Part shown: piece by piece, positions 4,496-46,823 of the stretch | How the letters are laid out: each line of letters opens with the position of its first letter | How positions within the stretch are numbered: the stretch's first letter is position 1 | Source: Symbiodinium sp. CCMP2592 | Taxonomy: Eukaryota; Sar; Dinophyceae; Suessiales; Symbiodiniaceae | NCBI GenBank assembly: GCA_905221615.1 | Contig: CAJNDT010003279.1 | Coordinates: 571,641 to 635,640, forward strand | DNA: 64,000 bases | Direction: 5' to 3' | The notes under the pieces: model-generated | The model's database searches: none | The model's input: only the letters and a program-made list of their open reading frames with translations | What the model was told of the DNA's origin: nothing | Translations under genes and position numbers: made by a program

Positions 4496-5938
4496 GTAGG
4501 GGCTTAGGAGTTTAGGGTTTAAAGCTTAGGAGTTTAGGGTTTCAGGCTTAGGAGTTTAGGGTTTAAGGCTTAGGAGTTTAGGGTTTCAGGCTTAGGAGTT
4601 TAGGGTTTCAGGCTTAGGAGTTTAGGGTTTAAGGCTTAGGAGTTTAGGGTTTAAGGCTTAGGGGTTTAGGGTTTCAGGCTTAGGAGTTTAGGGTTTCAGG
4701 CTTAGGAGTTTAGGGTTTCAGGCTTAGGAGTTTAGGGTTTCAGGCTTAGGAGTTTAGGGTTTCAGGCTTAGGAGTTTAGGGTTTAAGGCTTAGGAGTTTA
4801 GGGTTTAAGGCTTAGGAGTTTAGGGTTTCAGGCTTAGGAGTTTAGGGTTTCAGGCTTAGGAGTTCAGGGTTTCAGGCTTAGGAGTTCAGGGTTTAAGGCT
4901 TAGGAGTTTAGGGTTTAAGGCTTAGGAGTTTAGGGTTTCAGGCTTAGGAGTTTAGGGTTTCAGGCTTAGGAGTTTAGGGTTTCAGGCTTAGGAGTTTAGG
5001 GTTTCTTAGGAGTTTAGGGTTTAAGGCTTAGGAGTTTAGGGTTTCAGGCTTAGGAGTTTAGGGTTTCAGGCTTAGGAGTTTAGGGTTTCAGGCTTAGGAG
5101 TTTAGGGTTTCAGGCTTAGGAGTTTAGGGTTTCAGGCTTAGGAGTTTAGGGTTTAAGGCTTAGGAGTTTAGGGTTTCAGGCTTAGGGGTTTAGGGTTTCA
5201 GGCTTAGGAGTTTAGGGTTTCAGGCTTAGGAGTTTAGGGTTTCAGGCTTAGGAGTTCAAGGTTTAAGGCTTAGGAGTTTAGGGTTTAAGGCTTACGAGTT
5301 TAGGGTTTAAGGCTTAGGAGTTTAGGGTTTAAGGCTCAGGAGTTTAGGGTTTCAGGCTTAGGAGTTTAGGGTTTCAGGCTTAGGAGTTTAGGGTTTCAGG
5401 CTTAGGAGTTTAGGGTTTAAGGCTTAGGAGTTTAGGGTTTAAGGCTTAGGGGTTTAGGGTTTTAGGCTTAGGAGTTTAGGGTTTCAGGCTTAGGAGTTTA
5501 GGGTTTCAGGCTTAGGAGTTCAGGGTTTAAGGCTTAGGAGTTTAGGGTTTAAGGCTTAGGAGTTTAGGGTTTCAGGCTTAGGAGTTCAGGGTTTAAGGCT
5601 TAGGAGTTTAGGGTTTAAGGCTTAGGAGTTTAGGGTTTAAGGCTTAGGAGTTTAGGGTTTAAGGCTTAGGAGTTTAGGGTTTCAGGCTTAGGAGTTTAGG
5701 GTTTCAGGCTTAGGAGTTTAGGGTTTAAGGCTTAGGAGTTTAGGGTTTAAGGCTTAGGGGTTTAGGGTTTCAGGCTTAGGAGTTTAGGGTTTCAGGCTTA
5801 GGAGTTTAGGGTTTCAGGCTTAGGAGTTTAGGGTTTCAGGCTTAGGAGTTTAGGGTTTCAGGCTTAGGAGTTTTTAAGGCTTAGGAGTTTAGGGTTTAAG
5901 GCTTAGGAGTTTAGGGTTTAAGGCTTTAGGGTTTAGTT
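4496..5938 (+). repeat. 22 bp TTTAGGG-containing minisatellite, about 65 units
   Basis: A 22 bp unit, AGGAGTTTAGGGTTTCAGGC plus TT, repeats in register for 1.44 kb. Units differ mainly at one dinucleotide (CAGGC versus AAGGC). A rarer variant with GGGG in place of GGAG falls near 4662, 5186, 5450 and 5757. One unit near 5005 is shortened. Each unit contains one telomere-type TTTAGGG. The array is non-coding and looks like unequal-exchange expansion. Confidence 0.95.
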
Positions 5939-8231: not shown

Positions 8232-8726
8232 GTCAACATGCCTTCAAGCTGCGCGTACATGCGAGGGTGCTGTTGTTGTAGGCGTAGGAGTTTAGGGTTC
8301 GCGCTTGTTGACGAGGATCTGCATGACGTTTGTGGTCCTTCGGTTGGAGGTACGTAACGACGATGCTTGTGATGGTTTTGAAGACGAAGATTTCCATGAC
8401 TCCGTCAGCTGAACTGAAACTTCCATGGTAGTCGTTTTGTATTGTTGCTGTTGCCCAGGGTTGTTGACTCATAGACAAGGTCTCCCGAGCCTTTTCAGGT
8501 AAATCACTACAGCATACCAGTCAAGTAACCTACTTAAAATGATTTGAGGGACCCCGTTGCAATTGCAGTAGTGTGCCCGAATTGACGCCTTTCCAGCTCC
8601 CTGTGCCTAATCCCTGCAAACCCTGAACCCTATGCTAGCCTTATACCAGCCTAAGCCATGAGTCCTAAACCCTCTGAGCCTAAACCCTGAAGATGACAAA
8701 GAGTGTCGTTGGTTTCTGTGCTCCTC
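8232..8726. other. gene-free stretch
   Basis: Unique sequence with one minus-strand frame (8233-8478) lacking recognisable features, and CCCTAAA remnants at 8615-8700. Confidence 0.4.
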
Positions 8727-20472: not shown

Positions 20473-23400
20473 TTTTTCTCACTCTGGCTCTGGCACGCGC
20501 GCACAGCAATGCAGTGCGGCGCGTAAAGTCTCCGTCCGTCGGTGGGCTAAGCAAGCAGCGGACGGGCCAGAGCCGAAAGCGCCCCGACCCGCCGCCCGCA
20601 ACAAAATCCCCGCAGGCACTCCCTTGCCGATCCAAGGAGCGAGGCATCGACCCCAACAATCAAGCCGTCCATCAAAAAGCTGACCCCAAGCTCGGTGAGA
20701 TCCAGACCCCTAACGAACACAGCGTCGAGCCTCAAACCCTGAAAAGCACTGCGGAGGGCCTGCCGGACTAAGTACAGCCGCGTAGCCACATTGGGCGGGG
20801 CTGGAAGAAAAGCTTGTGTGCTGGCCGACAACCAGGAACCCTGTGATCCCTGAACCGGATAAACAAAACCACCACGACAGTGAAGCATGAAAACCACCTC
20901 AAGCCAAGAGATCCTGTGGGCCTGTTCGGACTCAGCATCCTGTACAAACATAAAACGACAAAGATCCTGCACAAAATCTGTAGGAAAGCTTGCCGCTGCC
21001 GCTGTTGCCACAGATTGCCAGTTGACGGGAAGGCACTCCTCAAGATCCAGTACCCTCGCGACTGCGGGTAGCTCATCACGAACGTCTTCATCCGCAGCCT
21101 CGATGCCGGAGTTTCCATCATGGCGATCTCCCAGAGTTGCAGCCGCAATACCGAAGTACATCGCCCGAAGCGAGCGGAGCGCCCGAAGCGTGAGGCCATG
21201 ATAATCCAAGGCTCTGCCCAACACCTGCTGAAGATCAGTCGGCCGGTTGGCATTCGTCAAGACCGCCAAAGTGTCCGCATGTTGATTTCCACACTGTACC
21301 CAATCTTCAAATGGGGATTCGGTCAAAGTCCGATCCAGATGAGATGGCACATGGAAAACCTGGAAGACCTCCTGTGGCAGCTGGTCAAGAAGCTCGGCCA
21401 AGTACGTCCAGAGGTCCGCGTTGTCCTGGGGAAGCTCTTGGCCCGATTGCCAAGCCTTTATGCCGTCCACAGCATTGAGCGCATCTGACCAGACCATACA
21501 CGGCACCGCATTCACGAGAGCAAATTTCGCCGCTGAGATCAAAGCCCAAAGCTCAGCCCGGGGAGCAGTCTGCAGTAATCCGGGGACGGGTCCACTGGAC
21601 ACCGGCCGGCCATCATCCAAAACCACCGCCCAGGCGGCCAAAGCAAACTCGGGTGCCTCGGAGTTCTGGCACGCTCCGTCCGTGAACAGATGATGCCAAG
21701 AAGTGCCAGACCCTGTACTCCAAAAGACCCCCGAAACATCAACCACCTCTGAAAGCAAGCGCCTGAACTCAGGGAGATGCGGGTTCGCCGCCGGAAGCAG
21801 ATGGTGCGTAAGGGCACAAGGGAGAGTATCCCAGGCTTGCACGATCCAGGTGTGCGCTGCACGTTGATCATGGAACCGTGGGCACTGGCAAAGACGGTGC
21901 TTGACCGTGTCTGGCACTCCACAGTGGCGACACAACTCCGCGGTCGGGGCGTATTTCGCATGCTGTGCTCCGAAGAGGAAAGCCCCGGAGCGAATGGCAG
22001 CAAGTCTGGCAGTGTCAAGTGCCGTCAATGAGGAAAGGTCAGCCCGAAGGAGTGGGGCATCAAGGCTTAGAAGATCGTGCATACTCTGCCTGTGGCAGTG
22101 TTGTGTCGCCACAAACTGCAGCCATGAATGCTCCAACAGACGATGCAACAAAGCAGTCGGCATCTGAAGAAGATGGTGCCGCAAACCCTCACCATCCTGC
22201 ACCCAAGGAGGATCAAGAACCTGCCAGCCGATCTGTCCGAGGACCTGCAAAAGCTTAGAGAATGGACCATGTCGCAGCCGACCCTGGAAAGAGCGCATGA
22301 AGCGAGTCCACATTGGAAGCAAGCTGGCAGAAGAGGAGGCCATGCGACGGATGTCCCGAACGCAAGCCCAAAGCTGATAGAACCCCGGATCCTGTTCACA
22401 ATCACCGAGGACGGAGAGCCTCAGCATAGAACTTGATCCAGCTGGGCGGATGCGCAGTGCACCGGTGGCAGCGGCGCGCAGCCTGCCGAGCTCGGCATCC
22501 GCTAGAGGGCAACCCGAAATCGCATGGAGCGCCCGGGGCCAGCACTTACCTGACAATGCACGAAGTTTTTGCCAGAGTGGAGCCCGAGAGCGACGAAGAG
22601 AAGCCCACAAAGAGTCAAGGGCCGAGCATCGGTCACGGAGCAGACGGTTTCGTGTAGCTGGCACAAAAGAGAACAGGCCACCCAGTTCCCGTGCAGATTC
22701 CAGCACCGGCAGCCCCAACCCGGAAAGACCCCTGCGGTCCGAAGGATCCGTAGCCCAAACGTAGGACTTTGCAGCATCCAGTTCAAGGCCAAGCATGTCC
22801 GTAAAGCATGTCGTGGTCTGCACCGCACTCGCTACTGAACCGGGGCTTTCGGCCAGGCACGAGAAGTTGTCTACGTATGTGAGGGCCCGCACAGACGGTG
22901 CAAAAACCCTCATGTAAACATGATAAGCCCAATCTGCCAACGTCATCGCCAAAGGGCTAAGCGGGCACCCCTCGGGGAAGCCTCTGGTGGAGGCTATGGC
23001 CTCTCCAATGTGTCCTCGAATCAGGATCCGTCTAGTAGTGGACTGGAGAAATGCAGCCCAGGGCCCAATCAGAGTCCACGGAAGTCCAAGCTGAGCACCC
23101 AATGCAAGGAGAGGGAGGCGAGGGAGAGCGTTGAAGCACTTCACTATGTCTGTGCAGTAGCCTAAGATGGGACAGCCTTCCTGAATGGCCAGCTCAATTT
23201 CGCATTGCATGGTGTACCAGAGATCCATCGCAGAATGGCCCGGCAGAAAACCGTGTTGCCCATGCGATATATGCGTGCGCAGCAAGCGCAATCCCTGGCG
23301 TGCACGAATACCGGCCCAGGCCCTGTACACTACCGAATACAAGCAAATGGGGCGGTAGGCCTGCGTGTCAGTCCGCCCATTCTGCTTATTAAGCAAGCAC

Positions 23401-25172
23401 AGAAATCCCATCAAGAGTTGTTTTGGCCAAGGGCGCCTGGAGTTTTCAATTTCGGCAAGGAAAGCCAAGAGCTGCAAGACCCTTTCAGTTGGCATGTGCA
23501 GCAAGTCCAGCCTAGCCCAGCCATCAGGACCTCGGGCAGCCCGAGGCTTGAAACGACGGATTGCCTGGCGCCACACCGGGACAGTAATGGCAGGAAGCTC
23601 CAAGGAACAACGAGGCATGTAGGCCGCAGCGAAAGACAAGAAGCGATCCCAGGCTTCGGCAGGGATCGAGGAAAATTCCCCCCAACGGGAAGACCAGAGC
23701 TTTTTGAATTCATAATGAAGATCGGACACGGAGGAGAGCGTCTGTACCTGCTCAAGTTCATGCCCGTCTGGCGCTTGCAAGGGAGCCGCCAGGGTGCAGA
23801 CGTCTTCTTCAGTCTTGGTAATGTGGACTGGCACGCCATCCACTTGCCAGAAGGACGAACCCCGAGCATCGGGCTCACCTTCAACTTGCACCTGACAGCG
23901 ATCCTCAGAAACAGCCAAAATGGCATGTGTTGTGGTGATGGTGAGTGTGTCGGCCTGGGAAGGGGCAGGCTCCCTCAGTTCGCGATACAACTGGTTGATG
24001 TTGGTCTCATACCTAGAATCCACAATGCGCAGCTTCTGGCGGAGATGCCAATCCTCAAATTTGCGATAGTTAAGTCGAAAGTCATCCAACAGCAGGCTAA
24101 CCTCCCTCGCACCAGGAACCGTAGCCCGCCTAGGATGCGGGCGGGTCGATTGGCCCACCAAGCCTCAAAACCTCCCGAGAACCCTCGTGCACGAAGAATT
24201 GATCGCCAGAGGGACACTCGGTACTCGCAAGCCTGTGGACTGACATTGGCAGCATGGACAGCATGTCGTAGGGATTGGATGCGGCGAAGCTGTTGAAACC
24301 ATCTCTTTACCTCAAGGCAGAGACCATCATGCCGCATGGCCTCCTCGCCTGGACGGCTCGGACTAATGGGGGGCCGATCAGCCTGATGTTGCTGGGGCTG
24401 TTGTCGACGGCCACGGCCAAAAGCATTGCGAGGAAGTTGGCCTCCAGGCGTGTGGATGATGAAGCCCTGGAGGCTGCGCTCGAATTGGTGGCCAAAGCGT
24501 CGGTACCACACATCAGAATCCTCGGACTCAATCGGATCATGCTGCCCCACCTCTTGCCAGGAGGCAATAGAAGCCTCCGCCCAAGGGATTTCTGCGGGAA
24601 GTGGCCAAGTCCAAGCCGGAACTGATACATCAGGCAGGCGGAGCTTGGCGATTACAGTAGAGTGCTCCTGAAACACATCCAAAACGTCAACTTGCGAGCA
24701 CAGGGCAATTGCCTCAGGAGACAGCCATACAAAATCCCTGTACGTGGCGTGCTTACAGGTGGGTCGGGGTTCTTGGCCCCAGAGCTGGGTGGCAAGGGTT
24801 TGTGCATCCTGCCATCCATTTGCTCGCCAAACAGCACATTGTTCTAAAGAGTCCACATCGTGATTGAAGTCGCCCAGTATCAATCTGACTCCTCTCATTC
24901 CTAAAACCACCTGTTTAGTCAACGGCTGAAGCATGGAATCCGTTCTAGGCAGTGCATCAGGCCAAGAGGGGCCTTGTGGGTAGCCATACACCGTCGCAAC
25001 AGTGATGGTTGTGGCAGCGGGGTAATGTTGACAGACAGACACCCGGCCAGATTCAAAAAGCCCAGCTGGCCAGACCAACTGAAATGGACGACTCGCAAAG
25101 TCAGAAACCTGCAAAACTCCGGTCCAGCTACCAGCCCAAGTGGAATGAGAGCGAAGAGCTGCCGGTGCGCCA
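20473..25172 (-). mobile_element. 5'-truncated non-LTR (LINE) retrotransposon with RNase H
   Basis: The 4.7 kb element lies between exact 15 bp direct repeats. Reading on the minus strand, its 3' end at 20473 is a short A tail (five to seven T on plus) preceded by a 74-base untranslated end. The body codes for an apurinic-type endonuclease remnant, a reverse transcriptase, a finger and RNase H. The 5' end at 25172 falls inside the endonuclease domain, so the copy is 5'-truncated, as is usual for LINE insertions. The body is clearly GC-richer than the flanks. No LTRs are present. A frame break separates the endonuclease and transcriptase parts, so this copy is unlikely to move on its own. Confidence 0.93.
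20547..24161 (-). CDS. LINE reverse transcriptase with zinc finger and RNase H
   Basis: Long frame of 1204 residues. The reverse-transcriptase core is seen as FKPRAARGPDGWARLDLL near residue 210, TDIVKCFNALP near 338 (catalytic Asp), FPEGCPLSPLAMTLAD near 395 and TYVDNFSCL near 427, where the usual second Asp of the catalytic pair is Asn. Near 742 CRHCGVPDTVKHRLCQCPRF looks like a CCHC-type finger. An RNase H domain follows: FTDGAC near 825, APRAELWALI, VWSDALNAVDGI and QHADTLAVL supply the acidic residues, and HVPSHLDR lies between them. The product would copy element RNA at the target and remove RNA from the hybrid. The N-terminal start is artificial: the protein-like sequence continues upstream in another frame. 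After RNase H about 170 residues of unclear role remain. Confidence 0.92.
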   Translation of the reverse strand: MVGQSTRPHPRRATVPGAREVSLLLDDFRLNYRKFEDWHLRQKLRIVDSRYETNINQLYRELREPAPSQADTLTITTTHAILAVSEDRCQVQVEGEPDARGSSFWQVDGVPVHITKTEEDVCTLAAPLQAPDGHELEQVQTLSSVSDLHYEFKKLWSSRWGEFSSIPAEAWDRFLSFAAAYMPRCSLELPAITVPVWRQAIRRFKPRAARGPDGWARLDLLHMPTERVLQLLAFLAEIENSRRPWPKQLLMGFLCLLNKQNGRTDTQAYRPICLYSVVYRAWAGIRARQGLRLLRTHISHGQHGFLPGHSAMDLWYTMQCEIELAIQEGCPILGYCTDIVKCFNALPRLPLLALGAQLGLPWTLIGPWAAFLQSTTRRILIRGHIGEAIASTRGFPEGCPLSPLAMTLADWAYHVYMRVFAPSVRALTYVDNFSCLAESPGSVASAVQTTTCFTDMLGLELDAAKSYVWATDPSDRRGLSGLGLPVLESARELGGLFSFVPATRNRLLRDRCSALDSLWASLRRSRAPLWQKLRALSGKCWPRALHAISGCPLADAELGRLRAAATGALRIRPAGSSSMLRLSVLGDCEQDPGFYQLWACVRDIRRMASSSASLLPMWTRFMRSFQGRLRHGPFSKLLQVLGQIGWQVLDPPWVQDGEGLRHHLLQMPTALLHRLLEHSWLQFVATQHCHRQSMHDLLSLDAPLLRADLSSLTALDTARLAAIRSGAFLFGAQHAKYAPTAELCRHCGVPDTVKHRLCQCPRFHDQRAAHTWIVQAWDTLPCALTHHLLPAANPHLPEFRRLLSEVVDVSGVFWSTGSGTSWHHLFTDGACQNSEAPEFALAAWAVVLDDGRPVSSGPVPGLLQTAPRAELWALISAAKFALVNAVPCMVWSDALNAVDGIKAWQSGQELPQDNADLWTYLAELLDQLPQEVFQVFHVPSHLDRTLTESPFEDWVQCGNQHADTLAVLTNANRPTDLQQVLGRALDYHGLTLRALRSLRAMYFGIAAATLGDRHDGNSGIEAADEDVRDELPAVARVLDLEECLPVNWQSVATAAAASFPTDFVQDLCRFMFVQDAESEQAHRISWLEVVFMLHCRGGFVYPVQGSQGSWLSASTQAFLPAPPNVATRLYLVRQALRSAFQGLRLDAVFVRGLDLTELGVSFLMDGLIVGVDASLLGSARECLRGFCCGRRVGALSALARPLLA

Positions 25173-25183
25173 CTCATGGTCAC
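23975..25183 (-). CDS. LINE endonuclease part, 5'-truncated, frame-broken from RT
   Basis: The frame carries LILGDFNHDVDSLEQC at about residues 98-112, the GDFN motif of exonuclease-endonuclease-phosphatase (AP-type) LINE endonucleases, and EHSTVIAKLRLP near 178 in the place of the terminal His motif. The N-terminal third of the domain is missing because the element is truncated, and the apparent start at 25183 is inside the target duplication rather than element sequence. Near 24125 coding similarity passes to the reverse-transcriptase frame, so a frame change (indel or programmed shift) lies there; residues after about 352 of this frame are nonsense. Confidence 0.85.
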   Translation of the reverse strand: MTMSGAPAALRSHSTWAGSWTGVLQVSDFASRPFQLVWPAGLFESGRVSVCQHYPAATTITVATVYGYPQGPSWPDALPRTDSMLQPLTKQVVLGMRGVRLILGDFNHDVDSLEQCAVWRANGWQDAQTLATQLWGQEPRPTCKHATYRDFVWLSPEAIALCSQVDVLDVFQEHSTVIAKLRLPDVSVPAWTWPLPAEIPWAEASIASWQEVGQHDPIESEDSDVWYRRFGHQFERSLQGFIIHTPGGQLPRNAFGRGRRQQPQQHQADRPPISPSRPGEEAMRHDGLCLEVKRWFQQLRRIQSLRHAVHAANVSPQACEYRVSLWRSILRARGFSGGFEAWWANRPARILGGLRFLVRGRLACCWMTFDLTIANLRIGISARSCALWILGMRPTSTSCIAN

Positions 25184-38430: not shown

Positions 38431-39269
38431 GTCTATTGGCCGGCTCAACCCGTTAGAGTTTGGAAGAGAACATGTGGGAACCTATCCAAAAACAGGTTGG
38501 TCGGTTCAACACGTTAAAACTTGAGAAGAGAAGAACCTATCCAAAAACAGTTTCCCGCAGCGTCCTCTTCTCCCTTATTAAGGGTCCCTCCTTTTACCCG
38601 TGGATAGAAGCCTTCAAACCCAAACCAGCCAGCGAGAACAGGAGCTAGAAGGGTTCCTTTGAGGGTCCTTTTCCTACGGATGCCGCACCATTCTGGGGAC
38701 TTACAGACCTTAATTTGGGAAAGTACCCCTATGTAATAAACCCTAAACCCTAAACCCTTAGGGTTAGAGCCTTAAACTCTAAACTGGAGAAGTACCCCGA
38801 TTAAGTCTCAGAAGTTTTGAGTTTCGGGCCTTCTCAAAGATAGAGAACTACCCTTGCAGTGCCTTCTAGAAACCCTACAGACTCCCTCATAGATCTTTTT
38901 GACTAAATAGGGACTCGTGAACTCAACCCTAAACCCCTGAACCCTTAAACCCTAAACCCCTAAACCCTAAACCCTTGAACCCTAAACCCCTACCTTAACC
39001 CGGAAGAACCTACCTTTTTAAGGAAACCATAATAAGGAACCCTAAAAAGCTAGGCCATTCAGGGTTAAGGTAAGCCTTGGAGAACCGTAAACCCCTAAAC
39101 CCTTGAACCCTAAACCCCTAAACCCCTGAACCCCTAAACCCCTAAACCTTAGAGAACTACCCAAATCCAGGTTGAGCAGGGCCCCGATGCTCCGCCCACA
39201 CGAACTTCGGAGAGCGTCGGCGCCTTTGCTGGGCTAAGGGCCTAAGCCTTAATGGGGCTTATAGGCTTT
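38431..39269. other. gene-free, CCCTAAA-rich stretch
   Basis: ACCTATCCAAAAACAG is duplicated (near 38479 and 38536). CCCTAAA tracts lie at 38737-38765, 38926-38990 and 39090-39160. A further inverted pair AACCCGGAAGAACC and GCCATTCAGGGTTAAGG surrounds 39000-39070. No gene. Confidence 0.5.
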
Positions 39270-39850
39270 AGGCTTTAGAGCTCGGGGTTAGGCTTTAGGG
39301 TTTAGACTTTAGGGTTTAGGCTTTAGGGTTTGAAGTTTAGGCTTTCGGGTTTAGACTTCAGGGTTTAGGCTGTAGGGTTAAGACTTTAGGGTTTAGGCTG
39401 TAGATTTTGAGGTTTACGCTTCAGGGTTTAGACTTTAGGGTTTAGGCTTTAGGTTTTAGACTTTAGGGTTTGAGGTTTAGGCTTTCTGGTTTAGACTTTA
39501 GGGTGTATGCTTTAGGGTTTGAGGTTTAGGCTGTAGGGTTAAGGCTTTAGGGTTTGAGGTTTAGGCTTTAGGGTGTAGAGTTTAGGGTTTAGGCTTTAGG
39601 GTTTGAGGTTCAGGCTTTAGGGTTTGGGGTTTAGGCTTTGGGCTTTAGGGTTACGGGTTATGCTTTAAGGTTTGAGCTTTAGGGTTTAGACTTTAGGGTT
39701 TAGGCTTTAGGGTTTGAGGTTTGGGCTTTAGGGTTTGGGGTTTAGGCTTCAGGCTTTGGGGTTTAGGGTTTAGGCTTCAGGCTTTGGGGCTTGGGTTTAT
39801 AGGCTTTGTGGGGGGTTTAGGCTTTGGAGTTTGGGGTTTATAGGCTTTGT
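39270..39850 (+). repeat. degenerate TTTAGGG minisatellite
   Basis: Variants of TTTAGGCTTTAGGGTTTGAGG and TTTAGACTTTAGGGTTTAGG alternate for 580 bp on the G-rich strand, with no strict period. It is older or more mixed than the 22 bp array at 4496. Near 39820-39856 TTTATAGGCTTTGTGGGG is directly duplicated. Confidence 0.88.
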
Positions 39851-40229
39851 GGGGCGATCGCTGAAACTGCTACCTACATGATGTCACTGTTCCTCTGGAT
39901 AGCTAAGTCATCCACTAGTGTTCCTCATGTTTCAAGTCTTAGGGTTGGTTGGTGTCTGCATGTCTCTGCATTTCAGCCAGACCCTGACTTGCCCTACTTC
40001 AGAAAACAAGGTGTCCACACATGAGCGAGAGCCGGAGCTAATTTGACCCTAGAGCCCTAAAAACAATGCCTTCAACCCTTAGAAAAGTTCATCGTGGAAG
40101 AGGAAAACAAGATTTTGAAAGAGGAAAACGTCATGGTCTCCTAGCTCGCCGCATATGCTCAGGGCCGTGAAGACCCAAGTGGTTCCCGCCAAGAGTGCAG
40201 TGTCTGCGGAGACCAGAAGCGCTGCTAAG
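39851..40229. other. gene-free stretch
   Basis: Short unique sequence. The 66-residue frame starting 39824 is not recognised. Confidence 0.35.
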
Positions 40230-40341
40230 CTTGAACCCCTAAACCGGTAAACCCCAAACCCCTAAATCCTAAACCCTAAACCCCTAAACCGGCAACCGCC
40301 TAAACCCTAAAACCCTAAACCCTAAACCCCTAAACCCTCAA
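40230..40341 (-). repeat. CCCTAAA array, left of the telomere-type insertion
   Basis: Units CCCTAAA and CCCCTAAA run up to AAACCCT at 40341, where the second LINE-type element begins. The array resumes at 46584 beyond the element's A tail. Confidence 0.85.
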
Positions 40342-40405
40342 GTAGCTGGTACACACGTGCATGGGTGCTAGGTGTTGAGGCCTGTTTCGTTTCCACTTAG
40401 TACCC

Positions 40406-41305
40406 TTGACGTACGTCTACTTGAAGGTTCTTGCTGGTGTTGCGACACCGGTGTCAGCATCACGAACTCTCTCATCGTGGTGCTGTTCGCTTCCTTCCTC
40501 AGCTTCAGCCTCACAACTGTCTTCATTGGCATCTTGTTGTGCTGTAGGACGGTTTTGTTTTGGTCGCTTGGTCGCGACATCTGGTTTGACAGGATCGATG
40601 ATGCATCATCGACAACTACGCACAGCAGTGATCCTGTTCGCGTTCATCGTCGTAGGAGGACAAGATCTTGAGACCTTGACTCAAGGCTTGAGTCTTGGCA
40701 TCGAAGCCACCTACCCAAGTCAGGGGTTCCGAGGGGACTTCCTTCAAGATGCCTTGACCTTGCCTGCAAGTACCAAGGCCCTTGAACAGCTCAACCGCTT
40801 CATCGAACTCTCCAAGACTGCAGCTGACACCAGTGTTCATGACTCTGCTTCAGGGATCGACTGGGCCATCCTGAAGTCCCTCTTCACTACTGTCTACCAA
40901 GGAGTGTTGAGAACTACTGGTAGTGCAGCCTTGAACGTTCCTGGCTTGACTGCGACACAACGTGTTGATCCTGGTCTCTGTGCAAGATCTGCTGCACTTG
41001 TAGTAGCAGTGCATCCTGATCTGTCGGGACAAGTGTTGTGGAACATGCTTGGACAGCAAGTGGGTTGTTCAGTCATCTTGGCTGACTTGGTCGCGCGCAA
41101 GGCCAAGACTGTTGTGTCTCCGACTGTCATCAACCAGAGGAAGTCTACCTTGATGACGTGGGCATCTGCCATCTCTTCTACAAGTGCAGATGAGCTGCGG
41201 CGACTTGGTGTAGTCTCAGGTCTTCTGGCGTCACTTGATCTTGCTGATCCAGCCAACGGCTTCTACATGGTTGTCACGCAAGCGGAGTTCAAGCCTTGCC
41301 TATAA
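40406..41305 (+). CDS. unknown ORF upstream of the reverse transcriptase
   Basis: A 299-residue frame ending 70 bases inside the reverse-transcriptase ORF. Residues from about 85 look protein-like (DFLQDALTLPASTKALEQLN, VHPDLSGQVLWNMLGQQVG, STSADELRRLGVVSGLLASL); the first 70 are Ser/Cys-rich and may not be translated. It lacks endonuclease motifs, so it is not the usual N-terminal LINE domain. It could be an ORF1-type protein, or host sequence joined to a 5'-truncated element. Codon use (many C and T at third positions) differs from the 1049-residue ORF downstream, where G is commoner. Confidence 0.45.
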   Translation: MTYVYLKVLAGVATPVSASRTLSSWCCSLPSSASASQLSSLASCCAVGRFCFGRLVATSGLTGSMMHHRQLRTAVILFAFIVVGGQDLETLTQGLSLGIEATYPSQGFRGDFLQDALTLPASTKALEQLNRFIELSKTAADTSVHDSASGIDWAILKSLFTTVYQGVLRTTGSAALNVPGLTATQRVDPGLCARSAALVVAVHPDLSGQVLWNMLGQQVGCSVILADLVARKAKTVVSPTVINQRKSTLMTWASAISSTSADELRRLGVVSGLLASLDLADPANGFYMVVTQAEFKPCL

Positions 41306-43244
41306 GGACAGCGCTGACACCAAAGAAGCGTTTCGGAAAGCACGAAGTACTAAACGAGGGGTGGATTGGACACAAGCCAGGCGGATGCGGAAGAGGAACA
41401 GACAGCAATGGGAAGAGGAGCGCATGCGTAGAGCGACCTCGGGGGATTGGGATGCCTACAGAACCTTGAAACCAGAGAAGTTCAAAGGGTGGGATGTTGG
41501 GTTTGCGGAAGCACAGGAAGGCCGGTGCCCCCACAAGGTGATCCATGATCACCTTGAAGCAATTTACACAACTGGTGGAGTTATCCCGCCGAAACCTGTC
41601 TGGGAGGGTGAGCTGGAAGAGTTCACCAAGGAGGAGCTTAGATGGGCTATTTTGCAAGGGAAGAGTGGCAAAGCAGTGGGGGCTGATGGCACCAGTCATG
41701 AACTTTTGGTCGGTCTCCTCAACACGCCAGGGGGTGATGATGCTATGCTGCCCTTTTTCAATGAGGTCTATCGGTCAGCCAACATCCCGGAAGACTGGGG
41801 GGTAGCGCTTATGCTGGTCATACCTAAGGAGAAGCACCCGCTCGATGCCAAAAGTTTACGGCCACTGTCGCTGGGGTCTAGTGTCTCCAAATGTTTCTGC
41901 CGCTTGCTCATGCTACGGACGATGCCAGCCTTGCGCCCTAAGGGTCCGTGTCAGTGTTCAGCTGCTGGGCGACAGTCTGCAGAGTATCTCTTTGGGGTGG
42001 GCCGTATCTTTCAACTTGAGACTGAGTGGCACTCTGGTTTGGCAATTGCTAAGATCGATCTGCGCAAGGCTTATGATCTGGTACATCGCCCTGCCTTGCT
42101 CGCACGTCTTGAAGCAACTATTGGTGATAGTGCGACGTATCGGTGCTGGCATGCCATGCTTTCGGATACTAGTGCGGTGCTTCAAACGGAGTGGGGTCAG
42201 ACTAGATTGCAGGTCGATAGGGGGATCCGACAGGGTTCGGTCGAGAGCCCTGCCATCTTCAGCTGGCTGGCGGAGCAAATTTTGGAGGACACCAAGGAGA
42301 AGTGTGGATGGGCTTCGAGGGCTTCGGTGTTTGCAGGGTTGACGGTCCAGGAGTTGTTGTTCATGGACGATGGAGGTGTCTGGGATAGCAGCGCAACAGG
42401 ATTGGCTCGGAAACTTCAGGAGTGGTCCAGGGAGCTGGCGAAGGCAGGACTCAGGCTCAACCCGGATAAATGCAAAGTCTATTTCTCACCCTACCTTCAG
42501 GGACCGAGACTGGTGCAGGTTGATGGGACGACGGTGCCAGAGGTCAAAGTGTTCGAAGTTATGGGGGTTCCTTTCTCTGTCGGAGCCAACACGTCGGAAC
42601 AGCTTGCCCCCTTCCTACAAAGGGCTAAGGACAAATTTTGGAGCCTGCGACATCTTTTCAGAGCACGAACACCGCTCAAAGGGAGAATACGACTACTAGA
42701 CAGGGTGGTTGGTGGATTGGTTCTTTGGTGCTTGGCGGCCCTGGTACCGGACAGTAGCGCTCTGGCCCTGCTGAACTCCCTACAACAACAACTGGTATTG
42801 TGGAGCATGAGGGTTGCGAAGCGTGCAGATGAAACATGGATGACCTTTCAGAAAAGGGCTCATAGGGGGGCACGCCAAGTCATCTGTACACATGCAGGAC
42901 GACGCTGGTCCACAAGCTGGTTGGAGCGCTGGTGGAATTTTGCAGGCCACAGAGCTAGGGGCATGGGCAGGGATAACCCAGGGGCGGCTTCCATTATCGA
43001 CAAGTACAGGGACCGAGAATGGTGGCTTGCTGAACAACGGAAGCCTCAGGAGGCACGACTTCAACACCCCAGGCATTACCCCAAACTTTCCAATTTGGAA
43101 AAGGACATGGACAGGGCTACAGGGGGTACCTTTTGGCGTAGGGTTGCACAGGACAGGGTACAGTGGGCAAAATGCAGGGATATGTGGATCCGACAGATGG
43201 ATTTACCATGGGCCAGTGGCAGACAGACTTGTATTAGGGCTTGA
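41235..43244 (+). CDS. non-LTR reverse transcriptase
   Basis: 669 residues. Core motifs in order: GKAVGADGTSHELLVGLL near 145-160, DAKSLRPLSLGSSVSKCF near 203-220, AKIDLRKAYDLVHRPAL near 271-287 (catalytic Asp), DRGIRQGSVESPAIFSWL near 327-344 and ELLFMDDGGVWDSS near 373-386, an intact FMDD box. A thumb-like region KAGLRLNPDKCKVYFSP follows. The N-terminal 60-90 residues are charged (RRMRKRNRQQWEEERMRRAT). No endonuclease or RNase H is present in this frame, so the copy is either truncated or relies on others. The frame is unbroken. The first 20 or so residues overlap another ORF and may not be real; translation could begin later. Confidence 0.88.
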   Translation: MILLIQPTASTWLSRKRSSSLAYKDSADTKEAFRKARSTKRGVDWTQARRMRKRNRQQWEEERMRRATSGDWDAYRTLKPEKFKGWDVGFAEAQEGRCPHKVIHDHLEAIYTTGGVIPPKPVWEGELEEFTKEELRWAILQGKSGKAVGADGTSHELLVGLLNTPGGDDAMLPFFNEVYRSANIPEDWGVALMLVIPKEKHPLDAKSLRPLSLGSSVSKCFCRLLMLRTMPALRPKGPCQCSAAGRQSAEYLFGVGRIFQLETEWHSGLAIAKIDLRKAYDLVHRPALLARLEATIGDSATYRCWHAMLSDTSAVLQTEWGQTRLQVDRGIRQGSVESPAIFSWLAEQILEDTKEKCGWASRASVFAGLTVQELLFMDDGGVWDSSATGLARKLQEWSRELAKAGLRLNPDKCKVYFSPYLQGPRLVQVDGTTVPEVKVFEVMGVPFSVGANTSEQLAPFLQRAKDKFWSLRHLFRARTPLKGRIRLLDRVVGGLVLWCLAALVPDSSALALLNSLQQQLVLWSMRVAKRADETWMTFQKRAHRGARQVICTHAGRRWSTSWLERWWNFAGHRARGMGRDNPGAASIIDKYRDREWWLAEQRKPQEARLQHPRHYPKLSNLEKDMDRATGGTFWRRVAQDRVQWAKCRDMWIRQMDLPWASGRQTCIRA

Positions 43245-43309
43245 GGGCGAAAGGGTTGTGGTATGGATGACAGGGCTCCTGCTGGGGCTGAACTTGATGG
43301 TGCTGCAGC

Positions 43310-46300
43310 TTGCTGGCCCCAATCTTGCCCAAAGCGAGCGCTTCGTGTCACACCGCAATGTGGTGTCAATTCGCTATCTTCGCCGGATGGACGTTGTCCT
43401 GGTGGAGTGTTTGTGCGGGTTCTCCTGAAGGGATGCCCGATCCAGATGAAAGGAACCTACAGCGCCCTTGGCGCCGGCAGCCAGATCGCTGGCTTGTTGA
43501 TGAAACCCTTGTGGGTTCCGGTGCTTTGATCAGCACGCCTGTCCATGCAGGCACACCGGGCCCTGAGACCATTAAGCACGACGAGGAGGAGATGGTATCG
43601 TGGATGCAGGGGACGATGACAACGGGAGGGCATGGCTCCGACCCATGGCTGGCGCTTTTACAGCGAATGGCTGGTGGACTGGAAGACATGCCGAAAGGGA
43701 TCAGAGGAGCGGCGGCAGGACAGCTGCTACGGTGGCTGTCGCACAGAGCGACGGATGTGGAGCACGGCTACTTCCTTGGACACGCAAAGGGCAAGCCGGC
43801 AGACGTGACTGCCTTGCTGGTGGCTATGCGAGAATCGGAGGATGAGCCGTGCCACCTCCTTCGAGGCACTCGGGAGTTTGAGTGGACGCTGGAGATGTGG
43901 CGTGCGGTATGTCAACACATCGAATGCCAGGATGGCTCCTTGGAGGACCTCGGACGAGAAGTGCCTATGAAGCTTCCAGTCATTATGTTGTTCCCTAAGC
44001 CTCTTCCACTGGATACGCCATCGGAGGAGGAGGAAGTGGAGCAAGGTTTGCAAGGTGCTCCGCCACCTAAGCGACGCCTGGTCCAGGTCGAATTGAGTTC
44101 GGGATCGGGTGACGTGCCCCGGACTTCGGTGAGTCTGTTGGCTCCTGTGAACGAGACGGGACGGGCAGAGCTTCATTTGGCGCTCACCATGGTGGAGCAA
44201 GCGGAGGAAGGCCCGACGCCGGTGGTGACAGCAGCACCCCTGGTACTACCGCCTCCGGCACCCCATGGGCTTGGGCGCTGTGGGCTCTCGCAAGCAGACT
44301 ACGAACGAATGTGGGATGGATGGAGGTCCGGAGCACTCATGTTGTCTGAGATCCGCAGAGTCCATGGGCCGATTGTGGCGCAACATGTGCTGGAGGAGTG
44401 GGGCCCCTTGCCCTTGGATGCCTACGTTACCCCACTGGATGCACCACCAGGCCTCAGCACTCCCAGACAGGACCTTACAGAGAGCAAGCCTGAGGAAGAG
44501 GATGCGGAAGATACGGGCCTCCTTCAAGGGATGGTAGTTGCAAAATGGCAGGGTGCCTTTGTTGCTGCGGCCCCATCACAGCCAACACCCAGGACTGAGC
44601 CACTGCCCTTCTTCGAGCTTGGACGAAGGATGGTGGATTACATGGTACGTGCTGGAGCCGAGGTTGGGCTGTTGTCCACAGTCTTGCAGCTGCTCACGGA
44701 GGATAGGGATGACGAGGGGTACTCGATCATGCTTGAAGAGTATCTCCTCCGTCTGGACCTTCCTATCGAGGAGGATGCTGAGAGGGCGGACGAAATACAC
44801 CCCCACCACCGCGATATCCTGGAATGGATGGAACAGGAGCTCTGGGAAGACTATGTTGACGTGATGGAGGCGGAGGCTGGCTGGGAGAGCGACGGTGTGA
44901 TGAACCGTCGGGCCAGCCAGACGGTATCTGCAGCTGATTGCAGAGTATGGAGGGAGTGGGCGACGTTGACCACTGCTTCTATACGGCCCCGCAGCAGATC
45001 CAGGTCTCCCAGGCGACAGGGCGATGCTACCAGCCTTATGGATGAAGGGGCAAAAATGAAGCCGAGGACAAAACAAGCGAGCAAGGCCAAACCGTCTGAA
45101 GCCTCGAGTCCCTCGACAAGGCCGTCGACGGCGACAGGCTCCGGTGCGAGAGAACGGGAAAGGAGCAGAAGAGGAGGGTCGCGCCGGTCGCCGGATCGTG
45201 ATGAGGAGAGACCAGAATTACCACGGCGCAGTGCAGGGAGGTGCACAGAGGAGGTGCGCCGTTTGAACCCCCTGGCGCGGCGAACGCATCGCCATGTGGT
45301 CTCTGGCACAAGGCCGATGGATGTTAACGAGGCCTCCCTATGGTGGCTTCGGGTTCTTGGCCTGAGGGGTCCTGTGGACAACGACATCACCAGCGTCCTC
45401 CCGCGGAGTGGGCATGACGACAGACTGGCGGAAGTACGAGATTTGCCCGTCTCAGACTTGCTGGTTGTTATGGTTGCCCTCCTGCGAGTTACGGCTATGC
45501 TGTGGGTGGAGTGTTGTCAGATGATGTATACACATCCACACATCTCTCAAGAAGTGGAGGTAACGGTGGAAGAGGAGGATGAGAGTATGTGGATGCAAAC
45601 TGGTGCCTGGACTACCTCAACGACGACCACGGAGATGCTGGACGACTCCTTGGGCAGGGAGTCCCACTGGAATGGCACCACAACGGATGATGAAAACTTT
45701 GGTGCGGTCAGGAGACGCGGGAGAGAGGCCATGGCCAGTCCGAATGTGGATGCTTTACTGCAGGATGAGCGGCAGCAGCAACAGGAGCTACAAGCAGAGC
45801 GACAGGCCCGCTGTGCGCAGGAAGCGGCACGAGATGATGAGGAGCAAGACCAGGAAAGGAGGGATGCTGCTTTGTATCGGGCTCACCAAGCAGAGGAGTA
45901 TCGGCAGTGGGAAAACTGGGCAGTCCTCAACACACCGTCTGACCCACCTCGCAGACAAAGAGTCTCCTTCCGAGTCCAACATGGGGATGCGGTGACTACG
46001 ACACACTGTGAGTTGCCGTTGGCTCGTGGTCGCCCGCTGCAGGTGACTATGTGGACTGAGGAGGTTGTGTCCGGATTGATGCCGGAGACCTCGGATGGGT
46101 TGGTGCGACGCCAACAGGGCCTTGCTCCAGTGCGAGCCGCTGGTGGCGCAGGAGACACCATGGTTGATGATGGAGTGGCCTCCTCTGCATCGACTGGACC
46201 TACGGTGGTTGGGCATACAGTGATGGACGAGAAGGAGCAGGACCGGATTCGCACAGAAACCTATGAAGCCTGGGTGAAGGGTTCCATCTCGGATGAGGAG

Positions 46301-46459
46301 GCGGTGAGCAGGGTTGGCGAGCATTATTACGTTGTCTTCCTAGCACAAAAAGCTGCGGATGACGAGGATGCGGCAGGAGGTGCTTCGGAGGGACCGTCGA
46401 AACGCCGTAAGTGTCTAGCAGAAGGGTGCGAGATACTGGAGAATGAGGGTGGGAAGTGA
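43310..46459 (+). CDS. large third ORF of the element: RS-rich, coiled-coil, unknown function
   Basis: 1049 residues in a frame different from the transcriptase. A Met at 43433 (residue 42) may be the true start, because residues before it look unnatural. It is acidic, with DTPSEEEEVEQG near 235. Residues 320-370 hold a helical YERMWDGWRSGALMLSEIRR. An Arg/Ser stretch IRPRSRSRSPRRQG lies near 560, followed by RERERSRRGGSRRSPDRDE near 620. A glutamine- and glutamate-rich helix ERQQQQELQAERQARCAQEA near 822 is a likely coiled coil. The end is SKRRKCLAEGCEILENEGG. No zinc knuckle or enzyme is recognised. Such features suit an RNA- or nucleocapsid-like chaperone, but that is inference. It ends 110 bases before the A tail, so it shares the element's 3' end. 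Confidence 0.7.
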   Translation: MLAPILPKASASCHTAMWCQFAIFAGWTLSWWSVCAGSPEGMPDPDERNLQRPWRRQPDRWLVDETLVGSGALISTPVHAGTPGPETIKHDEEEMVSWMQGTMTTGGHGSDPWLALLQRMAGGLEDMPKGIRGAAAGQLLRWLSHRATDVEHGYFLGHAKGKPADVTALLVAMRESEDEPCHLLRGTREFEWTLEMWRAVCQHIECQDGSLEDLGREVPMKLPVIMLFPKPLPLDTPSEEEEVEQGLQGAPPPKRRLVQVELSSGSGDVPRTSVSLLAPVNETGRAELHLALTMVEQAEEGPTPVVTAAPLVLPPPAPHGLGRCGLSQADYERMWDGWRSGALMLSEIRRVHGPIVAQHVLEEWGPLPLDAYVTPLDAPPGLSTPRQDLTESKPEEEDAEDTGLLQGMVVAKWQGAFVAAAPSQPTPRTEPLPFFELGRRMVDYMVRAGAEVGLLSTVLQLLTEDRDDEGYSIMLEEYLLRLDLPIEEDAERADEIHPHHRDILEWMEQELWEDYVDVMEAEAGWESDGVMNRRASQTVSAADCRVWREWATLTTASIRPRSRSRSPRRQGDATSLMDEGAKMKPRTKQASKAKPSEASSPSTRPSTATGSGARERERSRRGGSRRSPDRDEERPELPRRSAGRCTEEVRRLNPLARRTHRHVVSGTRPMDVNEASLWWLRVLGLRGPVDNDITSVLPRSGHDDRLAEVRDLPVSDLLVVMVALLRVTAMLWVECCQMMYTHPHISQEVEVTVEEEDESMWMQTGAWTTSTTTTEMLDDSLGRESHWNGTTTDDENFGAVRRRGREAMASPNVDALLQDERQQQQELQAERQARCAQEAARDDEEQDQERRDAALYRAHQAEEYRQWENWAVLNTPSDPPRRQRVSFRVQHGDAVTTTHCELPLARGRPLQVTMWTEEVVSGLMPETSDGLVRRQQGLAPVRAAGGAGDTMVDDGVASSASTGPTVVGHTVMDEKEQDRIRTETYEAWVKGSISDEEAVSRVGEHYYVVFLAQKAADDEDAAGGASEGPSKRRKCLAEGCEILENEGGK

Positions 46460-46583
46460 GTCGTGCTGAGTGGTATGAGGGAGCGTGCTGACAGGCTCGT
46501 AAGTAGCCTTCGTCGCCTTCCTAATAGGGATTTTCGACAGGCACCTGCAAGTCGGAAAAGAGGCGCTTAAAAAAAAAAAAAAA

Positions 46584-46823
46584 CCCTAAACCCTTAAACC
46601 CTTAACCCTTAAACCCTAAACCCTAAACCCCTAAACCCTAAACCCTTAAACCCTAAACCCTTAAACCCTAAACCCCTCAACCCCTAAACCCTAAAACCCT
46701 AAACCCTAAAACCCTAAACCCTAAAACCCTAAAACCCTTATATAAGCCCTAAACCCTTAAACCCCTAAACCCTAAAACCCTGAACCCTACAACCCTAAAC
46801 CCTAAAACCCTAAACCCTCACTG
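46584..46823 (-). repeat. CCCTAAA array, right of the insertion
   Basis: About 33 irregular units of CCCTAAA, CCCTTAAA and CCCTAAAA, interrupted once near 46739 by TATATAAG. Confidence 0.9.

Follow-up and report, generated by a model that had tools for sequence, protein, structure and literature searches.

A LINE copy between telomere-type arrays

The window, i.e., the whole 64,000-nucleotide stretch of Symbiodinium sp. CCMP2592 DNA that was analysed, carries a non-LTR retrotransposon (LINE) copy at approximately 41292–46583, which is 5′-incomplete and ends at its 3′ side in an A15 tail running directly into CCCTAAA (Table 1). Its reverse transcriptase (RT) frame is open (669 aa; Pfam RVT_1, E = 9.1e-19), and the copy has neither ORF1 nor an endonuclease. 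The original prediction had described a 6.2 kb block with an intact RT inside a telomere-type array. The CCCTAAA-type units on one strand at both flanks, the 15 A before CCCTAAA and the open RT frame were all confirmed, but the block is not one intact element, as the similarity of relatives to the window copy begins only at ~41280 (protein) or 41292 (DNA).

Table 1 Features of the window copy and its flanks
Feature	Position	Strand	Remark
CCCTAAA-type array, upstream	40234–40341	+	No direct contact with family sequence
CTCAAG at the array edge	40337–40342	+	Sequence; compared with leader junctions of relatives
DNA without a second genomic match, with a 299-aa open frame (40406–41305)	40342–41291	+	Replaces ORF1 and endonuclease
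RT part of ORF2, 5′-incomplete, endonuclease absent	41292–43244	+	Open frame listed at 41235–43244
ORF3, 1049 aa, Arg/Ser-rich middle	43310–46459	+	Aligned with DUF6822-matching relatives
3′ UTR, terminal GGAAAAGAGGCGCTT	46460–46568	+	Last 70 nt examined for a two-helix fold
A15 tail	46569–46583	+	Directly before CCCTAAA
CCCTAAA-type target array, downstream	46584–46818	+	Same strand as the upstream array

The 5′ CCCTAAA flank lies 950 bases away from family sequence. The intervening DNA (40342–41291) had no other match in the genome, either as protein (E 0.001, 25 candidates scored) or as DNA, which means that the 5′ telomere junction seen here does not belong to the family. Judging from these comparisons, the 3′ junction is the only family junction in the window, and the 5′ half of the copy would have been lost, or never copied. 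A host-mRNA chimera was considered for the intervening DNA, with the CTCAAG beside the array as a hint; neither the protein nor the DNA search gave a second copy. These six bases might at most be a remnant of a spliced-leader 3′ end; the leader scan did not report them, and returned nothing better than 5 edits for the window copy.

The words CCCTAAA and TTTAGGG occur 80 and 142 times in the window, respectively, where approximately 4 of each are expected by chance. A single copy in such surroundings proves nothing, and the case thus rests on genome-wide counts. The further suggestion that such an element helps to account for the interstitial repeats throughout the window was not supported, because there are many arrays and the A15 tail is the sole run of at least 10 A or T in the window.

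The neighboring telomere-type arrays switch strand within 38925–40341, from CCCTAAA to TTTAGGG-like (39262–39785) and again to CCCTAAA. Another retroelement was found on the minus strand (20547–25183), with RT and RNase H in one 1204-aa frame (20547–24161) and a 402-aa frame upstream; no clear A-tail-to-CCCTAAA junction was detected in the downstream flank examined. A satellite with a 22-base unit containing GTTTAGGG (~66 copies) occupies 4501–5936.

Genes, spliced leader and 3′ UTR of the family

The genome (1.098 Gb, 5383 contigs) was searched with the RT, which gave 66 scored matches from 2483 first-look candidates, a number that is thus a floor; 62 of the 66 had no internal stop. The sequences used for junctions comprised 20 copies fetched at 10 kb, 33 3′-end stretches and the window copy, that is, 54 of the 66, and the other 12 were not fetched for junctions. 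A separate contig search with the RT yielded five pattern matches and no relatives by tblastn.

From 5′ to 3′, the fuller copies contain CCCTAAA, a spliced leader (often doubled), ORF1, an in-frame TGA, endonuclease-RT, a third ORF (DUF6822), a folded 3′ UTR, A9–19 and CCCTAAA. Among the 20 relatives fetched at 10 kb, 17 (all but L012, L020 and L028) had the ORF1-TGA-ORF2 arrangement in contiguous frames, and RVT_1 was detected in ORF2 of all 17. The best matches of the RT in PDB were R2 proteins (E = 9.2e-21), followed by 8c8j (E = 4.9e-18), which we take to be L1. The RT type, the 3′ A tail and the endonuclease predicted in relatives identify the family as a non-LTR retrotransposon. Seven endonuclease residues (N27, E57, H126, D159, N161, D248 and H249) were invariant in the 16 aligned relatives, and the roles of these N, E, H, D-x-N and D-H residues are assumed. 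Exo_endo_phos was significant in one of the 16 members (E = 5.8e-9), and matches of the endonuclease profile to PDB were weak (best E = 0.0015; TDP2, 0.11 and above). The invariant residues and the one significant Pfam hit among 16 suggest that the endonuclease is APE-like. Across the available frames, dN/dS was 0.09–0.34 in both pairs with dS <1; the remaining pairs had dS >1 or were saturated, with dN/dS of 0.04–0.14 where a value was given.

ORF3 matched DUF6822 in all 15 aligned members at E ≤0.01 (best 5.3e-56); that of the window alone gave E = 0.0022, which is below the Pfam cut-off. Against solved structures the best ORF3 match had E = 0.17, and DUF6822 was unmentioned in the openly licensed literature searched. 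In 16 of 21 ORF3 frames, a hydrophobic segment after an early Met had a Kyte-Doolittle value (15 residues) of at least approximately 1.5, compared with 1.25 in the window copy; other parts of the same proteins are often as hydrophobic, and a signal peptide is not claimed.

One TGA lies between ORF1 and ORF2 in a common frame in 17/17 copies with contiguous frames. AUG is absent between this TGA and the endonuclease core in seven of them, so AUG reinitiation cannot yield the whole enzyme in those copies. TGA also ends ORF3 in 20 of 21 cases (ORF2 stops: TAG 10, TGA 9, TAA 2; n = 21), and the TGA after ORF1 is thus alone no proof of readthrough. UGA readthrough from ORF1 into ORF2 would be the simplest reading of these frames.

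As we read the 5′ boundaries, the exact leader suffix GGCTCAAG was present in 14 of 20 copies, a one-change form in 3, and neither in 3. The leader was plainly doubled in 12 of the 20, and the inner copy starts CCATTTT, directly after the AG of CCGTAG, in 7 of these 12; this would fit use of the AG of the earlier leader as the acceptor. Upstream of the boundary, a CCCTAAA-like score of at least 8 was found in 10/17 copies and a TTTAGGG-like one in 0/17. Genome-wide, and counted regardless of family membership, the double leader gave 174 matches, some of them overlapping, with CCCTAAA within 12 nt upstream in 25 (24 unique) and TTTAGGG in one. At C450:21537–21589, C4:71102–71139 and C538:75762–75799, the double-leader matches are 15 bases apart and overlap, corresponding to at least three leader relics in a row. 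According to passages of PMC8045281 and PMC10235124, dinoflagellate retrogenes carry relict spliced leaders, and like them the LINE family has leader sequence at the 5′ end of the DNA copy. Unlike those retrogenes, the retrocopy here is an element that encodes an RT itself.

Of 44 unique 3′ UTR sequences, 36 could form a two-helix fold, in many compensatory variants. The parse tries many placements, so the yardstick for this count was 100 letter shuffles of the first 50 of the 70 nt, which averaged 8.0 and did not exceed 16. Direct parsing was used because MAFFT alignment of 34 of the 44 pieces misaligned several rows; RNAalifold on another MAFFT alignment of the 3′ UTR gave only −4.4.

Junctions of the A tail with CCCTAAA

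A tail of A9–A19 was seen in 49 of the 54 copies, whereas L039, L040, L044, L046 and L058 had none within the fetched stretch. The base after the tail was C in 44 and G in 5, and never A or T. A CCCTAAA-like score of at least 8 followed the tail in 30/49, compared with 2–5% of random window positions, and exact CCCTAAA lay within 19 nt past the tail in 26/49. Neither a TTTAGGG-like tract nor the exact word TTTAGGG was found there in any of the 49.

Genome-wide, the terminus GGAAAAAGG-N5-A10, a pattern that leaves out the window copy's own GGAAAAGAGG subfamily, had 274 occurrences, and the reversed control had none. CCCTAAA lay within 12 nt past 75 of these termini (82 matches, 75 unique) and TTTAGGG past none, where the density on the plus strand of the window would give 3.8 and 7.4, respectively. 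The original prediction, drawn from one copy, had proposed a target choice that a tabulation of 3′ junctions should reveal. The A-tail-to-CCCTAAA junction does recur, with CCCTAAA on the sense strand, and both the exact word and the graded score support the choice. It had also named a majority of copies in other DNA as evidence to the contrary; this is not what the graded score gives, whereas exact CCCTAAA is absent within 12 nt of 199 of the 274 termini. Degenerate tracts are probably part of the 199, given that graded scoring picks up more tracts than exact matching.

The flank score was 0 after six of the 49 tails. That of L009 is a CCCGAAA-like tract, and those of L015, L017, L020, L030 and L048 look unrelated, which leaves targeting as a strong preference or as a pattern that has decayed. 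The 49 tails are not all independent: the 3′ junctions of L037 and L038 (C2974, C5195), and those of L050 and L051 (C3073, C5057), are identical, indicating duplicated or redundant assembly pieces, and the L052 3′ UTR is nearly that of L037. Given shared ancestry and these few duplicates, the p values reported here are optimistic. The family has repeatedly inserted in the telomere-type repeat in one orientation, which is our working definition of a telomere-repeat-targeting LINE.

Three further observations concern the tails. The tail is exactly 15 A in all six copies ending GAGGCGCTT or GGGCGCTT (the window copy and L009–L013). In L014 (oriented 8453–8541), two family elements lie head to tail, in the order tail, short CCCTAAA tract, spliced leader and ORF1-like frame. 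A10-CCCTAAACCC was found at 245 places genome-wide and A10-TTTAGGGTTT at one, the latter not being a clean control because slippage in arrays favours the former. At least 10 of the first 100 A10-CCCTAAACCC places listed are family ends, and the remaining ones may be other retrocopies or array slippage.

The A tail absorbs the AAA of the unit, which makes four of the seven registers indistinguishable. At 28 junctions the first four bases agreed with a register of the unit, and these were CCCT in 24, CCTA in 3, CTAA in 1 and TAAA in 0. The CCCT class thus holds 24/28 compared with 4/7 by chance (p = 0.001 if independent), a register that would put the nick within the T-run of GGGTTTAGGG or next to it. 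At the 5′ side, 16 of 34 joins follow CCC or CCCT (9.7 expected, p = 0.017; the class was chosen after the data were seen, and the 5′ register is loose), and 8 to 21 leader bases are kept.

Proposed insertion model and relation to known telomeric elements

Based on these sequence comparisons, we consider it probable (approximately 0.83) that the damaged copy in the window belongs to a dinoflagellate LINE family with a preference for (CCCTAAA)n/(TTTAGGG)n tracts, which it enters in a single orientation. Target-primed reverse transcription at the nick described above, as in TRAS, is the most likely mode. The host spliced leader, which is seen in the DNA copies, would be placed on the 5′ end of the element RNA by trans-splicing. 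ORF1 would then be read, and passage through the in-frame TGA, as the observed frames allow, would give an ORF1-endonuclease-RT fusion. The APE-like endonuclease would nick the TTTAGGG strand within its T-run or next to it, as the junction register suggests. The exposed ...GGGTTT 3′ end could pair with the A tail and prime reverse transcription, possibly aided by the 3′ UTR, whose fold is backed by compensatory changes. The cDNA end would then rejoin the other strand, with CCC or CCCT as the most frequent preceding bases and with many joins falling inside the leader.

A rather unlikely reading, though the one among the alternatives that retains some weight, is that the repeats were made at insertion, either by addition of the element to broken or free ends via TTTAGGG overhangs or by telomerase healing. 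Short tracts do lie beside some copies (e.g., L023 and L010), and one links the head-to-tail pair in L014, but comparable short tracts are frequent in the window where no such element is present. A tail followed by sense-strand CCCTAAA is the outcome of priming from a TTTAGGG 3′ end, as this reading has it, whereas the endonuclease encoded by relatives argues against it, and the absence of a concentration of copies at contig ends argues against free-end addition. For the 55 of 66 copies on contigs of known length, the spread along contigs resembled a uniform one (KS p = 0.93), and 8 copies lay within 20 kb of a contig end where 6.1 were expected, bearing in mind that contig ends are not chromosome ends. 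Telomere upkeep, which had been part of the original prediction, is thus unsupported. The targets examined are mostly interstitial on contigs, so the data speak for repeat targeting, and telomere maintenance is not shown.

It is highly improbable that there was no target choice, with tails meeting a very common CCCTAAA by chance and intact copies surviving there because nothing is disrupted. The word counts in the window show how common the repeats are, but the junctions are enriched 10- to 20-fold over window rates with a full strand bias (75 vs 0), and survival bias would not predict strand bias. We give just as little credence to slippage in arrays that grew the AAA of the unit to at least A10: A9–10 runs do occur within tandem arrays (L037, L038), as does a 40-base ladder on C109, and slippage may account for some of the 245 generic A10-CCCTAAACCC places, but family tails come after a conserved terminus that closes a coding element whose 3′ UTR is folded. 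Terminal attachment of the Penelope type, which fits the orientation, was disfavoured, since the relatives encode an APE-like endonuclease; Penelope-like elements of the endonuclease-deficient class have a telomerase-related RT and no endonuclease domain.

The preferred reading, target-primed insertion into telomere-type repeats, has counterparts in insects. TRAS and SART belong to the R1 clade, and the APE-type telomere-repeat-targeting LINEs known to us are from insects. Among the openly licensed papers searched, no title concerned a dinoflagellate telomere-targeting LINE, an absence that carries little weight. MoTeR of Magnaporthe and FoTeR of Fusarium are reportedly telomeric non-LTR elements linked to chromosome ends. 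Passages of PMC7265360 describe HeT-A, TART and TAHRE as non-LTR elements that are also linked to chromosome ends. In contrast to all five, the dinoflagellate family shows no excess near contig ends.

In passages of the same source, the TRAS insertion point on the (CCTAA)n strand lies between C and T, and the TRAS1 endonuclease nicks TT^AGG (PMC7265360). The dinoflagellate family resembles TRAS (TRAS1Bm of Bombyx mori) in that its tail-to-CCCTAAA junctions fall in the corresponding register class and its 5′ joins favour CCC/CCCT. It differs in its TTTAGGG host repeat, its 5′ spliced leader and the location of its copies, mostly away from contig ends; on its own side, its ORF1 and ORF2 also share a frame with a TGA between them, and a large ORF follows the RT. 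SART1 of Bombyx mori is likewise a telomere-repeat-specific LINE, whose 3′ UTR and tail have been tested for retrotransposition, but it inserts in the opposite orientation (passages of PMC7265360). The likeness drawn in the original prediction to both insect elements therefore stands in orientation for TRAS and not for SART1. The dinoflagellate family appears to work like TRAS, a likeness of mode and not a clade placement.

Passages of PMC8045281 interpret the LINEs of Symbiodiniaceae as what is left of an ancient expansion, a view that the open, selected frames of the family do not fit. The family gives Pfam DUF6822 a home in a LINE family, represents a set of candidate endonucleases with plant-type telomere specificity, and offers a route for leader-bearing retrocopies. 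As a numerous and diverse TTTAGGG-directed family in a dinoflagellate, it points to more than one origin of the strategy, or to a greater age than has been assumed. More tentatively, it is conceivable that these elements are promoterless LINEs, with a leader-capped RNA, an enzyme made by UGA readthrough, a downstream DUF6822 protein and a separately evolved, TRAS-like TTTAGGG specificity, and that insertion of other A-tailed RNAs into CCCTAAA tracts may be a further activity of their machinery. The 245 A10-CCCTAAACCC places against one of A10-TTTAGGGTTT would be a hint of this, part of which array slippage could account for. If true, such placement would link dinoflagellate retrogenes with interstitial telomere repeats.
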